DNA of 64,000 nucleotides from Farysia itapuensis (taxonomy: Eukaryota > Basidiomycota > Ustilaginomycetes > Ustilaginales > Ustilaginaceae): assembly GCA_023212645.1 (NCBI GenBank), contig JALBYC010000001.1:620001-684000 (forward strand). Direction: 5' to 3'. Position 1 is the first letter of the stretch, and the number at the start of each line of letters is the position of its first letter. Shown in pieces: positions 46,591 to 53,115 of this stretch. The translations under genes were made by a program, and so were the position numbers. The notes under the pieces were generated by a model. That model made no database searches, was not told where the DNA came from, and saw nothing but the letters and a program-made list of their open reading frames with translations.

Positions 46591-47958
46591 CTAAGCGATG
46601 AGATGCGGTTTCCTTCGCTGGGTCCAGGATTCGAGTTGGCGCCAAAAGTGGCTGACTACCTGTTTGTCAGTGTGTCGCTTGTTTCGATCGACTTGCAGCT
46701 CTGTGACGTTCCATTCACGAATGTTGGGGCTCTGTGGCTCGTTGTGCCAGCGCACGTATACGCCCATTACGTTTTTGAAAAGCTCTTTAGGTTCGTTCCA
46801 CTTGTATGCTTTGAACTGCCAGCCCTGACCGGTGGTGAAGACGGCAATGACTCTGTTCCAAGGGTCGGCAGCTGCACCGGTGGCTCCTGACGAGGCCAAG
46901 CGATTGACTGCTTCGGCGTTATCGACCACCAACAGTCGACGACCGATGCCAACGCCTTGGCCGGGCACCGCTGCTCCCCCTCGGCTGGTGATGGACACGA
47001 CCAAGTCTGCAACGCCACGCGCGCGTTGCCTCGCCTCCTCTGGATGCACAAAAATACCTTCTTCCAGGTATTGCTTGATGTTGAACATGTTGAGCAGACT
47101 GGTTGGTGAATTCGAGATGACAACAATCGGATCTTGTGCACGTTGTTTCCTGACTTGGCCGCTGGAAGATCGGGCTGCAGACGCTGCAGGTGCAGCTGCC
47201 GGCGCACTGCGCCCTGCCAGCTTCCGCGCTGCTTCGACTTTCGTCGAAAAGGATCTTCTGAAGCTCTCGAAGTCTGTGGACTTGGGTACTGCGACGCGTG
47301 AGACGGCAGCACCTCCTGTTGCGATGCTGGCGTTGCCCCTCAATGCGTCGTTGCGGGTGCGCAGTACCACTTCGTATTGCGAACGTATTCTTTTGACAAG
47401 CTCGGCGTCGGTCTTGTTGACCTGGTAGGGTCGTTTTGTGGTGGGAGCGGCAGGAGCGGCACTAGTCTGCTTGACAGCTGCTGATCCATCTTCTGCTGCG
47501 ACACTGGCCTGAGCGACGGCTGTGACAGCACTCAGAGGTAGAACACCGGACCAATCAGACCGACCGCCGAGTAGATAGTCCAGGATGGCCGCTCTGTCTA
47601 GCGCAGAGAAGGATGCTACTTTGGCAGTCGCCGATTGCGCAAGGTACGCGCCTGGACGCTCATCTCTCGCTTGCACACCAAATATGACCGCTTCCACCGA
47701 GTAGAACAGCAAAGGCTCCGACTCCAGAAGTGGCAGAGAGTCGGCCTGGAAGCGAGAGGCAAGCTCGTCTCTTGAACGGGCTAATCGTGTTGGCAGTGTC
47801 TTGTCCAGTGTCGTCTCTCCAATTTTGACGGAACGTGCTTGCAACACTGACTCGACCGGAGTATCCGTCTCGTCCAAGAACGTGAGCTTGGCCAGAGGGT
47901 CACCCTCTTGAGCCCCGCTCTGAATGGCGCCGCGGATGAGATCCAGCGCGTCAGACAT
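46591..47958 (-). CDS. CDC73: Cdc73/parafibromin, Paf1 complex subunit
   Basis: This 455-residue protein has the N-terminal Cdc73 region (MSDALDLIRGAIQSG, and YSVEAVIFGV near residue 85). A Ser/Ala-rich middle follows, then the Ras-like Cdc73 C-terminal domain from about 280, with PIVVISNSPTSLLNMFNIKQ and FTTGQGWQFKAYKWNEPKEL. The Paf1 complex travels with RNA polymerase II and promotes histone H2B ubiquitination and elongation. The C-terminal domain is well conserved here to the final residues. The gene is divergent from TRM4 with 212 bp between starts, a probable bidirectional promoter. Confidence 0.92.
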   Translation of the reverse strand: MSDALDLIRGAIQSGAQEGDPLAKLTFLDETDTPVESVLQARSVKIGETTLDKTLPTRLARSRDELASRFQADSLPLLESEPLLFYSVEAVIFGVQARDERPGAYLAQSATAKVASFSALDRAAILDYLLGGRSDWSGVLPLSAVTAVAQASVAAEDGSAAVKQTSAAPAAPTTKRPYQVNKTDAELVKRIRSQYEVVLRTRNDALRGNASIATGGAAVSRVAVPKSTDFESFRRSFSTKVEAARKLAGRSAPAAAPAASAARSSSGQVRKQRAQDPIVVISNSPTSLLNMFNIKQYLEEGIFVHPEEARQRARGVADLVVSITSRGGAAVPGQGVGIGRRLLVVDNAEAVNRLASSGATGAAADPWNRVIAVFTTGQGWQFKAYKWNEPKELFKNVMGVYVRWHNEPQSPNIREWNVTELQVDRNKRHTDKQVVSHFWRQLESWTQRRKPHLIA

Positions 47959-48170: not shown

Positions 48171-50941
48171 ATGTATCGCGCAAAGGATCAAAAGCGAGGC
48201 GGTAGGAGAGGTGGCGGAAGAGGAGGTGGAGGTCGTGGTCGAGGTCGTGGTGGAGGACGTGGAGGTGGTGCTAGCAGAGGCGGTGGCCAGCACCAGGGTG
48301 TTCGCGCCAACTACCACACCGGTGACCAGAAGAACCCTCGTCTAGAAGCGTATTACATCGACCAAGGCATCATCCCGCCCTCAGAATGGGGTACTTTCAT
48401 GGAAACACTCCGATCCCCGCTGCCCACAACATTCCGACTCACCGCTGGCAAAGAGACAACACCACAACTGCTCAAAGCCTTAGAGGAAATTTACACCCCT
48501 TTCTTGTCCAACGTCATTTTCGATGGCGAAAAGGTCGATCCTCCCAAAACCCTGCCATGGTACCCACATGGTCTCGGCTGGCACCTGAACACCAAGAAGA
48601 ACGTCATCCGCAAGTCTCCCGAGTTCAAGCGTTTCCACCAGTTTTTGGTACACGAGACAGACGTTGGGTCCATCAGTCGGCAAGAGGCCGTTTCCATGCT
48701 TCCGCCACTGTTCTTGGACGTGCAGCCTCACCACATTGTTCTCGACATGTGCGCAGCACCTGGTTCCAAGACAGCTCAGCTGATTGAGTCCCTTCACTCG
48801 CCCTTCACGTCTGCGCCAAACGCGTACGACGCAATGCCGACCGGTCTCATCATTGCCAACGACTCGGACACCAAGCGTGCTCATATGCTCGTGCATCAGT
48901 CGCAGCGTCTCCCATCACCCAACTTTCTCGTCACAAATCTGGACGCTTCGACGTACCAGTCGATTCAGGTGCCATACAAGGGTCCTGAAGAGGGTGCAGA
49001 GGTTCAACAAATCGCCATGAAGTATGACAGAATCCTCGCCGATGTTCCGTGTTCAGGAGACGGAACGATTCGCAAAAACGTGCCTATCTGGAAGGAATGG
49101 ACACCCAACAACGCCGTCGGCCTCCACGCTCTGCAACTCAAGATCCTCATTCGAGGTCTCAACCAGCTTCGAGATGGAGGACAGCTCGTCTACTCGACTT
49201 GTTCCATGAACCCGATCGAGAACGAAGCCGTCGTCGCCGAAGCCATTCGACGCTTCCAAGGCAAAGTCAAGATCGTTGACTGCAGCGCGCGACTTCCGGA
49301 ACTTGTACGTCGCAAAGGCATGACCACCTGGAAAGCGGCTCCGGGACGAGGATCGCACCTGTTCGGCAAGTCAAAGCATGCTCTTGAGAAAAAAGCACAG
49401 GGCGAAGCAGCTGCAGCAGCTGTAGAAGAAGCGAACACGGACGCCGACGCCGATATGGAGGACGCCGAGGGCGAAGTAGACGACACCGTGGAGACGGAAG
49501 CTGAACCAGATCAAGCTACTACTGCTGCCCAGGGCGAAAGCAGCACGGCGCAGGTAGCGCCACCAATGCCGCCGGCTGGCACGCAAGAGTACCGTGACCG
49601 CTTGCCAGAGATTGCCTGGATCGATGACTGGGAGCAGCTGAATGAATTGGACGCCGAACTCGCTTCAAGGACACCCAAGACACTCTGGCCACAGGGCGAC
49701 GAAGAAGAGCTGGGCACGCAGCACTGCATGCGACTATACCCGCACTTGCAAGACACAGGAGGCTTCTTTGTCGCTCTGCTGGAAAAGGTTGGCGATGTCA
49801 ATGCTGAGGGCATGGCTGCAGGTATGATTCGCGCCATGGACCATCTTGACGCACTAGACGTCAACAGCGAGACTCTGGCCGCGCCAGTACTTTCGGAATC
49901 GGAAGTCAACGGCGACACTCTCAACGCTCCGACCAAGCGAGAGCTGTCTCCTCAAGCTGACGAGGAGGAGCGTGCCGCGAAGAAGCTGAAGGAGGAAGAA
50001 AGCGCAGACGTAGAGCCCGAAATCTCTGCAGACACCAACGTCAAGGATGACAAGCATGCTCTTGATCGAGCCCGTAAAATTGCCCAGCAGAAAGCAGTTT
50101 CCGAAGGCCATGGGTTGTCCGGCGGTCTACCTTACAAAGAGGATCCATTCGCTTACATCCACCCCTCCAATGACCAGGTTCAGATCTGCAAGACCTTCTT
50201 TGATCTCAAAGAGACTTTCCCGCTGCGAAATCTGCTTGTTCGCAATGAAGACCATCTGCCGTTGCGATCGGTCTACCTTACCTCTACCACCGCACGTGCC
50301 GTCATTACTGGAGGTGGGCCAGGTCGAGGCAGCCACCCAACCATGAACCCTATCCTTCTGCGTTTGCTCAATTGCGGTATCAAAAGTCTGGGACGACAAG
50401 ACGCTGGCAAGGATGTCACGCTGCAGTGCAAGTGGCGAATCATTTCTGACGGCTTGCTGTCCATCCGACCCCACATCGAGGAGCGGGCCATTGTATCGTG
50501 CGAGCTCAAGGATCTGGCCTTCCTCATCTCTCACCACTACCCGATTTTGGACCATGTGCCAGGCGAGTTTGGCAAGACGTTGAAGGGCAAGAAAATGGGC
50601 AGCTATGTGATCGACGTTCTTCCCTCGGAGCACCAGGGCCAGAGAGTGGACCACAAGATGAGCTTCCCCGTCTGGAGAGCCGTCAACAGTGTCAACCTGA
50701 TGCTCGACAAACAAGAAAAGAGGTATGTTAAATTCGCTTGGGCCGCTGTTTTCCTTTTTTTTTTCTTGGTTGCGAACTGGTCTGACCGTTTTTTTGGCTT
50801 TTCTTCCTGCTCAGTGCACTGTCTTATCGTATCTTTGATACGGACCTTTCGAGCGAAGACGGCGGTCGACAATTCTCCTCGCAGCCCTCTAAAAAGCCTG
50901 CCAAATCAGCAACAGCTGGGTCTGCCGCAAAAGATACCGAG
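48171..50941 (+). CDS. TRM4: tRNA (cytosine-5) methyltransferase Trm4/Ncl1 (NSUN2 family), apparently joined in frame to URA5
   Basis: Exon 1 is 48171..50722 and exon 2 begins at 50815, after a 92-nt intron. The N-terminus is an RGG/Gly-Arg tract (about residues 9-45). The methyltransferase core has the SAM loop DMCAAPGSKTAQL (about 189), the DVPCSGDG motif IV (about 293) and the catalytic Cys in YSTCSMNPIENE (about 342). An acidic Ala/Glu-rich insert follows at about 405-465. Exon 2 supplies ALSYRIF, the expected Trm4 C-terminal stretch. After splicing no stop codon occurs before the OPRT frame, so the predicted product is a 1158-residue fusion ending at 51739. If the intron is retained, translation stops at 51002 (943 residues). 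Trm4 makes m5C in nuclear and cytosolic tRNAs. Confidence 0.85.
50723..50814 (+). other. Intron in TRM4 that sets the frame into URA5
   Basis: Donor GTATGT follows exon 1 in phase 2. A CTGAC branch-like site and poly-T tracts lead to acceptor CTGCTCAG ending at 50814. The length, 92 nt, is not a multiple of three, so retention and removal give different C-termini. The retained frame contains no stop inside the intron. Confidence 0.75.
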
Positions 50942-51739
50942 ATGGCGCTGTCTGACGCCGAAGACGCGGCTCGTGCAGCGGCCTCTTCTGTCACCGCTGT
51001 AGCAAAACCCGCCAAAGTGGAGCTAGCGCCATATCAGTCCGAGTACATTCAGCTGGCGCTCGACAGCAGTATTCTCAAGTTCGATGGTCCATACACGCTC
51101 AAGTCGGGTCGTCTGTCGCCCTACTTCTTCAACGCTGGACTGTTCAACACGGGAGCCAAGATTGCCAAGGTTGCCGAATGCTATGCTCAACGCATCATCG
51201 ATTCCGGTGTGCAGTTCGACGTGTTGTTCGGACCGGCTTACAAGGGTATTCCGCTTGCTGCTGCTACAGCCTTGGCGTTGCAGACCAAGCACGGCAAGGA
51301 TGTTGGCTTCTGCTTCAACCGCAAGGAAGCCAAGACGCACGGCGAGGGCGGTAGTCTGGTCGGCGCCGAGCTCAAGGGTCGAGTGCTAATTCTCGACGAT
51401 GTCATTACCGCGGGAACGGCCATCAACGAAGCCATGGAGATCCTGGCCACTCAGAAAGAGGCTCAGCTCGCCGGTGTCGTTATCGCCCTGGACCGCCAAG
51501 AAAAGTCTGGAAAGGACGGTGTGGTGGCACCCACCAGTGCCATTACCGAAGTCGAGGCACGCTACAACACCAAAGTCTACTCAGTCGTCACACTCGACCA
51601 GATCATAGAATTCATGAAGACTGGCCCAAGAAGCACGACCTACGCTCCCCAAATTACACAGATGAACCAGTACCGCATTCAGTACGGCACCAGCGACATT
51701 GCCAAGGCCGAAGCGCAAGCTCAAGGCAGCAACCCATAG
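50942..51739 (+). CDS. URA5: Orotate phosphoribosyltransferase (pyrimidine synthesis)
   Basis: From the ATG at 50942 this is 265 residues. It transfers ribose-5-phosphate from PRPP to orotate, giving OMP. After an Ala-rich N-terminal extension of about 28 residues, the core starts near PYQSEYIQLALDSSILKF. Conserved pieces are LKSGRLSPYFFNAGLFNTG, FGPAYKGIPLAA, FNRKEAKTHGEGG and the PRPP-binding LILDDVITAGTA. The frame is continuous with TRM4 exon 2 (50815 onward), without an intervening stop. The enzyme is therefore either the C-terminal half of a fusion or is made from its own ATG on a separate transcript. Its own promoter would have to lie inside TRM4. Fungal OPRTs are usually about 225 residues. 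Convergent with the G-alpha gene. Confidence 0.92.
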   Translation: MALSDAEDAARAAASSVTAVAKPAKVELAPYQSEYIQLALDSSILKFDGPYTLKSGRLSPYFFNAGLFNTGAKIAKVAECYAQRIIDSGVQFDVLFGPAYKGIPLAAATALALQTKHGKDVGFCFNRKEAKTHGEGGSLVGAELKGRVLILDDVITAGTAINEAMEILATQKEAQLAGVVIALDRQEKSGKDGVVAPTSAITEVEARYNTKVYSVVTLDQIIEFMKTGPRSTTYAPQITQMNQYRIQYGTSDIAKAEAQAQGSNP

Positions 51740-52050: not shown

Positions 52051-53115
52051 CTATAGCAAGCCAATGTCTCGCAGGTTGACCTGGATAATGATATCGTTGA
52101 CGGCCGACATGACGAACTTGATCTGACTGGTGTCGGTGGCGCAAGTGAAGTGGGTGTAGATCGACTTGGCGTCAGACTGGTTGAGGCTGACGAAACGGTT
52201 GACAATGTAGTCGCAGGCCGCGTTGTAGTCCTGACCGCCGGTATAGTCGCTGAAAAAGTCGGCCATGGGGGAAATGGCCAATTTCTGCTTGAACAGGTCG
52301 ATTTTGTTGAGAAAGAGAATGATGGACGTCTTTACAAACCACCTCGAGTTACAGATGCTGTCGAATAGCGTGAGTGCCTCTTGCATACGGTTGACGTTCT
52401 CGTCTTCGTACAGCAGCTGGTCATACTCTGAAATGGCGACGAGGAAGATAATGGCAGTGACGTTTTCGAAGCAGTGTATCCATTTCTTGCGCTCCGAACG
52501 CTGTCCACCTACGTCAAAGAGCTTGTAGTTCAAGTCACCGATCTGGAAGTGTGTCTCGGTGATACCTGTAGTCTTGACCCGTGATCGGAGCACGTCCTGG
52601 TCGTTGGGGAGGTAAGCGGGGTCGGCCATGCGTGAGATGGAGTCAAAGTAGTATTTAGCCGAGTCGTTGAGCTGATACTCTCTGCTTCGCAGGAAACAGG
52701 CTTGAACGCCGTGATCGGACCAGAGGCCGGCGATGGCGTCGGCGATTTCATGGGGCAGAGTATCTGACTCAATGCTCGGTGAAAGGCCGAGAATGATTTC
52801 TGCCCGGGGAGCGTTGTTGCCGTCTGCGAGAGGAATATCGAGGCGCTCCATTGCATCGAGAATGACGCGCATGGATTGCAGTGTGTTGGAGAAGATGATC
52901 TCCTTGTACGAGAGTCGCTCTTCGGTGGTGTAGGATCCGTGGTTGATGAGTTTCATCTGCTTGAGGATGGTCGACTTGCCCGACTCTCCAGCGCCGAGCA
53001 AGAGCATTTTGATCTCATTCTTCTGGGCAGCACGATCCTTTTTCAGCTGTGCTTCGATCGCATCGTTGCGGGCCTGACCCTCGGGGTCGGCTGCCTTGGA
53101 CGCACCACAACCCAT
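52051..53115 (-). CDS. GPA1: Heterotrimeric G protein alpha subunit, fungal group I (Gpa1/FadA-like)
   Basis: This 354-residue GTPase starts MGCGASK, with Gly2 for myristoylation and Cys3 for palmitoylation. GTP-binding motifs are intact: GAGESGKST (41-49), switch I RVKTTGIT, switch II DVGGQRSERKKW with the catalytic Gln, NKID, and TCATDT near 326. The N-terminal block EGQARNDAIEAQLKKDR and the overall sequence match group I fungal G-alpha proteins, which act in pheromone, nutrient or growth signalling. The C-terminus ends RDIGLL, so the Cys four residues from the end, used by pertussis toxin in many relatives, is absent. Assignment to a particular smut paralogue (Gpa1 to Gpa4) is tentative. 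The gene has no intron and diverges from GLN4. Confidence 0.88.
   Translation of the reverse strand: MGCGASKAADPEGQARNDAIEAQLKKDRAAQKNEIKMLLLGAGESGKSTILKQMKLINHGSYTTEERLSYKEIIFSNTLQSMRVILDAMERLDIPLADGNNAPRAEIILGLSPSIESDTLPHEIADAIAGLWSDHGVQACFLRSREYQLNDSAKYYFDSISRMADPAYLPNDQDVLRSRVKTTGITETHFQIGDLNYKLFDVGGQRSERKKWIHCFENVTAIIFLVAISEYDQLLYEDENVNRMQEALTLFDSICNSRWFVKTSIILFLNKIDLFKQKLAISPMADFFSDYTGGQDYNAACDYIVNRFVSLNQSDAKSIYTHFTCATDTSQIKFVMSAVNDIIIQVNLRDIGLL

Follow-up and report, generated by a model that had tools for sequence, protein, structure and literature searches.

In this study, we report that a 64,000-nt stretch of Farysia itapuensis DNA (assembly GCA_023212645.1, contig JALBYC010000001.1, positions 620,001-684,000; hereafter the window, to which all coordinates are relative) carries a two-exon gene that probably encodes one bifunctional protein. 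Judging from sequence comparisons, a fused protein would be a main product of this gene, with or without some free second enzyme. The N-terminal moiety is a predicted TRM4/NSUN2-type tRNA 5-methylcytosine (m5C) methyltransferase (residues 1 to ~907, with a PUA domain and an acidic Ala-rich tail), which would be joined directly to an orotate phosphoribosyltransferase (OPRT; residues ~921-1158). As proposed in the initial annotation, excising 50723-50814 leaves a single stop-free frame from 48171 to 51739 (Table 1). Translation of the spliced sequence shows that the two exons join in phase to give 1158 aa with a terminal stop only; in this product, ALSYRIF starts at residue 852 and codon 50942 encodes Met-894. 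The predicted 1158-residue fusion itself appears well supported, with both modules in one spliced frame and the same fusion modelled in relatives. The 92-nt intron, which starts with GTATGT and ends with CAG, is a plausible fungal intron, and CTGAC at 50782-50786, read by eye against what we take to be the branch-site consensus, is a good candidate for the branch site. The strong evidence for the fusion, as we read it, is comparative and homology based.

The first module displays features that would place it in the TRM4/NSUN2 family, i.e., an RsmB/F domain with PC and TC motifs, followed by Pre-PUA and PUA domains. Exon 1 matches PF01189 (126 bits, for a cut-off of 27), PF25376 (57.1 bits), and PF25378 (37.7 bits), and it aligns with the human-type NSUN2 chain 9z2p_A with an E value of 8.8e-128. 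The cysteine in DVPCSGDGT is presumably the motif IV cysteine, and we take that in YSTCSMNP to be the catalytic motif VI cysteine. The Pre-PUA domain (PF25376) is also recognized, with 58.4 bits, when the last 532 residues encoded by the spliced frame are searched. Exon 1 alone covers positions 2-78 of the 87 in the PUA profile (PF25378), while addition of exon 2 extends the match to 2-86 and raises the score from 37.7 to 46.9 bits. Because exon 2 completes the PUA domain, it is needed by TRM4 itself. A tandem-repeat scan found a sole repeat, the RG-coding one at the N terminus of TRM4.

The second module appears to be a bona fide OPRT, since it passes the cut-off of the pyrE model and contains the catalytic loop and the phosphoribosyl pyrophosphate (PRPP) motif. 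It scores 191.1 bits against TIGR00336 (cut-off 106.8) and aligns with the OPRT of Escherichia coli (E = 3.2e-70), Salmonella (1.2e-70), and yeast (~1e-53). In terms of score, the window OPRT (51023-51736) is closer to bacterial PyrE (E ~1e-70) than to the yeast enzyme. Both NRKEAKTHGEGG, which we assume to be the loop, and VLILDDVITAGTA, presumably the PRPP motif, align with solved OPRT. The E. coli, Salmonella, and yeast alignments begin at residues 27-29 of the open reading frame (ORF) that starts at 50942, corresponding to residues 2-4 of those chains. Since the solved-OPRT alignments start 26-28 residues past the 50942 Met, the first ~26 residues of a presumed free OPRT would be extra. 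The ATG at 50942 had originally been taken as the start of OPRT, which is no longer evident, because this Met lies within the TRM4 tail and the matches to solved OPRT begin downstream of it.

The nature of the junction is best understood by comparison with TRM4 proteins that stand alone. What had been described as a 42-codon linker between the modules corresponds instead to the end of the PUA domain followed by TRM4's own tail, as indicated by the PUA profile and by Tilletia sequences. The four stand-alone Tilletia TRM4s among the matches listed (P0203-P0206, 4/4) end in a matching tail with the pattern DQ[ED][ML][AG]D.ED.A.AAA, for example KDQEMADAEDEAMAAAAAAAGDS; at the smut junction, the window has KDTEMALSDAEDAARAAA and the smut protein P0001 has KDAEMQLSDAEDAARAAA. 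Local alignment of the window tail with these four tails gave scores of 59, 45, 64, and 56, which were equaled by 0, 6, 0, and 0 of 500 shuffles, respectively. Across the 16 smut-Tilletia tail pairs, between 0 and 12 of 500 shuffles equaled the score, and only Tilletia matched consistently. None of 13 Malassezia tails and one of 12 Exobasidium-type tails (P0195) aligned with the window tail at a score equaled by ≤5/500 shuffles. The other pairs reaching this level were scattered (P0033 with P0002; P0162, P0163, and P0174 with P0003; P0195 with P0001). The broader claim that every TRM4 tail resembles the junction is unsupported; the tail argument is limited in this respect, as most Malassezia and Exobasidium-type tails do not beat shuffles. 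From the Tilletia match, we conclude that the stretch from 50816 to ~50983, including the ATG at 50942, codes for part of TRM4, which has no stop of its own before OPRT.

The Met encoded at 50942 is the sole one in the window protein between GGRQF, at the end of PUA, and the OPRT core, and this codon is therefore the only AUG from which a complete free OPRT could start. The corresponding position in the Tilletia tails is a Leu in 3/4 and a Met in 1/4. Some relatives have a second Met shortly past the tail (MSSS in P0003, MASS in P0043 and P0044, MSTT in P0049), and the OPRT models of Thecaphora and Melanopsichium start with much the same sequences, MASS and MSTP, respectively. This second Met may be a remnant of the original start of OPRT, which some species would have retained and which would have disappeared from the window, P0001, and P0002.

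The fusion is not confined to F. itapuensis. Using the C-terminal 359 residues as a query, we scored the 7992 best candidates and listed 41 long proteins, three of which combine the four domains in a single chain. P0001 is a 12-member cluster named "related to NCL1 - tRNA (cytosine-5-)-methyltransferase / probable Orotate phosphoribosyl transf", P0002 is from Kalmanozyma brasiliensis (Ustilaginales), and P0003 is from Violaceomyces palustris, which belongs to another order (Violaceomycetales) of the same class. They are 78, 79, and 68% identical, respectively, to the C-terminal part of the window protein and match it in their four domains and in the junction between tail and OPRT, with no architectural difference seen. 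Two further records, P0004, filed under the powdery mildew Golovinomyces magnicellulatus, and P0005, filed under the plant Cichorium endivia, contain smut-like TRM4-OPRT sequence and are probably smut contamination in records of other organisms. In P0005, the stretch from the PUA end through the tail to the OPRT start, read by eye, is also stop-free. Whether the junction was open in related smuts had been raised as a check by the initial annotation, and it is stop-free throughout in P0001, P0002, P0003, and P0005. A viral-contig scan for relatives returned none.

Shorter records add to this picture. Among the short OPRT records, we compared the 13 nearest (P0042-P0054, at least 75% identity). 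In 9 of them, the sequence starts with the tail motif at its Met, in frame with OPRT; seven were recognized by pattern and two, P0050 and P0053, by eye. They are not all independent: P0042, with 94% identity to the window, may come from the same or a very near species. Taken together, conservation of the junction in related smuts appears well supported, whole in P0001-P0003 and P0005 and partial, from the in-tail Met onward, in 9/13 short records. A sequencing or assembly error masking a stop between TRM4 and OPRT, conceivable as a single assembly of the species was examined, is thus hardly credible, since the whole junction is open in these four proteins and the frame is open from the in-tail Met in nine more ORFs, including P0042. 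The intron is informative as well. All four TRM4 ORFs P0036-P0039 end at or shortly past KQEKR, which implies the same intron position, unspliced. Identical longest-contig sizes are reported within each of the TRM4/OPRT pairs P0038/P0043, P0039/P0045, and P0036/P0047, so the members of each pair probably lie on one contig. The TRM4 model of Malassezia sp. CBS 17886 (P0173) seems to keep an intron at the same position (KQEKRYGEAVVLLTSSALSYRLF), and this retention suggests that the intron predates the fusion.

Table 1. Features of the TRM4-OPRT gene (window coordinates).
Feature	Coordinates	Strand	Description
Exon 1	48171-50722	+	2552 nt; TRM4/NSUN2-type tRNA m5C methyltransferase (predicted): RG-rich N terminus, RsmB/F domain (residues 181-369), Pre-PUA, most of PUA
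Cys codon, PC motif DVPCSGDGT	49050-49052	+	Identical to NSUN2 in alignment
Cys codon, TC motif YSTCSMNP	49200-49202	+	Aligned with NSUN2 YSTCSLNP
Intron	50723-50814	+	92 nt, GTATGT...CTGAC...CAG, within PUA domain
Exon 2	50815-51739	+	925 nt; PUA end, TRM4 C-tail, whole OPRT, stop
TRM4 C-terminal part	50816-50983	+	ALSYRIFDTDLSS (PUA end), K/S-rich stretch, KDTEMALSDAEDAARAAA tail
In-frame ATG	50942-50944	+	Within TRM4 tail; context GAGATGG
Variable short stretch	50984-51022	+	Separates TRM4 tail from OPRT core
OPRT (PyrE/Ura5) core	51023-51736	+	Residues 921-1158; NRKEAKTHGEGG loop; PRPP motif VLILDDVITAGTA at 51383-51421

Several observations weigh against a fused product. To begin with, the stop-free stretch is by itself weak evidence, because it is not improbable: 789 of 5000 base-shuffled versions of the 42 codons preceding 50942 were stop-free, as were 392 of 5000 shuffles of the 68 codons ending at 51019, and a second forward frame is likewise stop-free across the 42 codons. 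The OPRT domain PF00156 was found in P0001-P0003 only, among the best 120 TRM4 matches listed. A dual name is by itself not evidence, as P0201 (852 aa) bears one without having an OPRT domain; its tail is like that of Ceraceosorus P0186. The nine motif-bearing short ORFs begin at the in-tail Met, so that they document an open frame only from there. OPRT is modelled separately in Melanopsichium pennsylvanicum (P0048), Pseudozyma flocculosa (P0052), and Thecaphora frezii (P0054), as well as in P0051. Finally, a Met is present in the tail of all five fused frames compared (the window, P0001, P0002, P0003, and P0005), and the context of the ATG at 50942 is favorable, with G at -3 and +4, as for a used start codon.

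These points need to be set against the rest of the evidence. Shuffle statistics alone do not reject a chance open frame, but the comparison with relatives and with Tilletia tails does. Over 50816-51019, it is the fusion frame that looks like local coding DNA, with a score of +0.21 bits per codon, compared with -0.21 and -0.24 for the two remaining forward frames (the training set includes the remainder of the same TRM4-OPRT gene). The separate models P0048, P0051, P0052, and P0054 have N termini without the tail and are hence mute on the upstream frame. In an OPRT tree that is weakly resolved (3/20 inner branches starred), the separate models of Melanopsichium and P0051 join fused ones in a starred group (96/99), P. 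flocculosa clusters, though not with full support (86/84), with Violaceomyces and P0053, and Thecaphora is unplaced. Such a tree cannot show that the fusion arose only once.

The favorable ATG bears on the possibility that the gene has two products, the fused protein and a free 265-aa OPRT translated from 50942 on a shorter mRNA starting in the end of TRM4 or in the intron. Such a scheme, which agrees with the caution of the initial annotation about initiation at 50942 and is compatible with a bifunctional main product, could well operate in the cell, even if we do not consider it the probable case. Besides its context and its presence in the five fused frames, this ATG is the first ATG/GTG/TTG of its open frame; the motif-bearing ORFs begin at the same Met, possibly as a result of how ORFs are called, and three named species have separate OPRT models. 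Fungi can obtain dual products from one gene by splicing, readthrough, and non-AUG starts, and Ustilago maydis is one of the species named in the literature on such products. Since the in-tail Met belongs to the TRM4 tail motif (the Tilletia residues being Met in 1/4 and Leu in 3/4), its conservation could have another cause. The promoter scan covers bacterial-type sites only, which makes its lone forward match, at 50569-50596, uninformative for a fungus.

Splicing, in turn, bears on whether these are two separate genes, with TRM4 stopped by alternative splicing or intron retention and OPRT made only as a free enzyme. Joining the donor at 50723 to 8 of the 10 acceptors tried closes the TRM4 frame with a stop of its own, retention of the intron yields a 943-aa form ending at 51002, and several relatives have models in which OPRT is drawn apart. 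However, such forms would lose the PUA end and the tail that are present in the stand-alone Tilletia TRM4s, and both the conservation of the intron position and the in-phase joining of exon 2 favor the fused form. We therefore regard separate genes as unlikely.

The assembly searched for additional copies comprises 13.7 Mb in 53 contigs and may be incomplete, which also counts against the fusion reading. It contains one OPRT above the pyrE cut-off and one full TRM4, a second TRM4 match elsewhere being 38% identical to residues 166-371. A candidate second OPRT on contig C6 was rejected, as it scores 27.6 bits against the pyrE model, which is below the cut-off, and is a different phosphoribosyltransferase (PF00156, 30.7 bits), which we presume to be adenine-type. 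If the assembly is complete for the OPRT gene, the TRM4-OPRT locus would supply all the OPRT. The genome has three matches to the orotidine monophosphate (OMP) decarboxylase family PF00215, all on contig C2, with none in exon 1 or among the last 532 residues, i.e., the window protein does not have the architecture of a uridine monophosphate (UMP) synthase. The TRM4-OPRT gene is flanked on the minus strand by a divergent ORF (46591-47958), which we take by eye to be CDC73/parafibromin-like, and by a convergent one (52051-53115), presumably a G-protein alpha subunit. The start of the former is separated by 212 bp from the start of TRM4.

A predicted structure was available for the relative P0001, rather than for the window protein. 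This AlphaFold model, based on 79 sequences, few of them fusions, has a mean predicted local distance difference test score of 82.0 and a predicted template modeling (TM) score of 0.71. Both the TRM4 and OPRT modules are confident, with low confidence in the join (~858-911) and in three loops (422-451, 569-618, and 633-643). The relative placement of the modules is not informative in this model, given how few fusions there are among the sequences. Foldseek searches with the model retrieved OPRT structures, including those of E. coli and yeast, with target-normalized TM scores mostly between 0.82 and 0.95, and, more loosely, m5C methyltransferases with TM scores of 0.53-0.78. The join being of low model confidence and variable in length and sequence, one may speculate that the fusion, once translated, is cleaved within the low-complexity stretch that separates the tail from OPRT, freeing two enzymes, which strikes us as quite improbable. 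As the title of the 1oro structure indicates, a loop at the OPRT dimer interface contributes to the neighbor's active site. Because the active site involves a neighboring monomer, a working fusion should be a dimer.

These elements can be assembled into a tentative scenario for an uncleaved fusion. In an ancestor common to Ustilaginales and Violaceomycetales, the stop of TRM4 was probably lost, and TRM4 ran into a neighboring OPRT gene. The resulting single mRNA would be spliced and translated into one bifunctional protein, both halves of which may be active, judging from their intact motifs. OPRT would act as a tethered dimer and TRM4 as usual, with dimerization of the former presumably dimerizing the latter as well. 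OPRT would then work wherever TRM4 sits, its small metabolites crossing nuclear pores freely. The initial annotation had put forward a nuclear OPRT and a tie between tRNA modification and pyrimidine supply, both of which are hypothetical. A bolder version, which we consider rather doubtful, is that this is an obligate bifunctional smut enzyme: all OPRT would be tethered to TRM4, de novo pyrimidine synthesis would be carried to the nucleus or to sites of tRNA processing, TRM4 would be a dimer, and both activities would share one expression level.

Comparison with known systems highlights what is ordinary and what is not. Stand-alone TRM4/NCL1 and NSUN2 resemble the first module in their methyltransferase, Pre-PUA, and PUA domains as well as in the two cysteine motifs, and the Tilletia TRM4s share the C-tail. 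However, stand-alone TRM4 ends after its tail, whereas in the window protein OPRT follows without a stop. Likewise, PyrE/URA5 and the window protein have a complete OPRT core in common, but the solved PyrE/URA5 chains matched are free proteins of 213-238 aa, while the window OPRT is C-terminal to TRM4 and its sole AUG lies inside the TRM4 tail. In UMP synthase, a bifunctional protein in which OPRT is fused to OMP decarboxylase, OPRT is likewise half of a larger polypeptide (PF00156 plus PF00215, as in records P0007 and P0008), but its partner catalyzes the next step of the pathway, whereas the partner of OPRT in TRM4-OPRT is an RNA-modifying enzyme. In modelled chains from Wallemia ichthyophaga (P0010) and W. 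mellicola (P0021), OPRT is found together with threonine synthase (OPRT being N-terminal in P0010), which is either a further OPRT fusion in basidiomycetes or a merger of gene models made more than once. The initial annotation knew of no TRM4-OPRT fusion, yet in P0001, a public record from a relative, a single protein is given the names of both enzymes. Judged by their titles, none of the open-access papers found by searching for the enzyme pair appears to treat this fusion. The architecture is thus already named in a database record; it unites two enzymes that are ordinary in themselves in a fusion that is both unusual and conserved.

As for its significance, known OPRT fusions, of which UMP synthase is the example, join steps of the same pathway, whereas TRM4-OPRT joins a tRNA methyltransferase with pyrimidine synthesis. 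Its occurrence in two smut orders suggests that the fusion is at least tolerated and perhaps useful. There are practical consequences. Gene models that split TRM4 and OPRT at or past the in-tail Met may be wrong, and removing TRM4 or OPRT in fungi that have the fusion may hit both functions. The fusion also raises the testable question of whether an essential metabolic enzyme can function when attached to an RNA-modifying enzyme, and of whether either activity needs the other. If the tethering were indeed obligate, nucleotide supply would be physically coupled to tRNA modification in these fungi.

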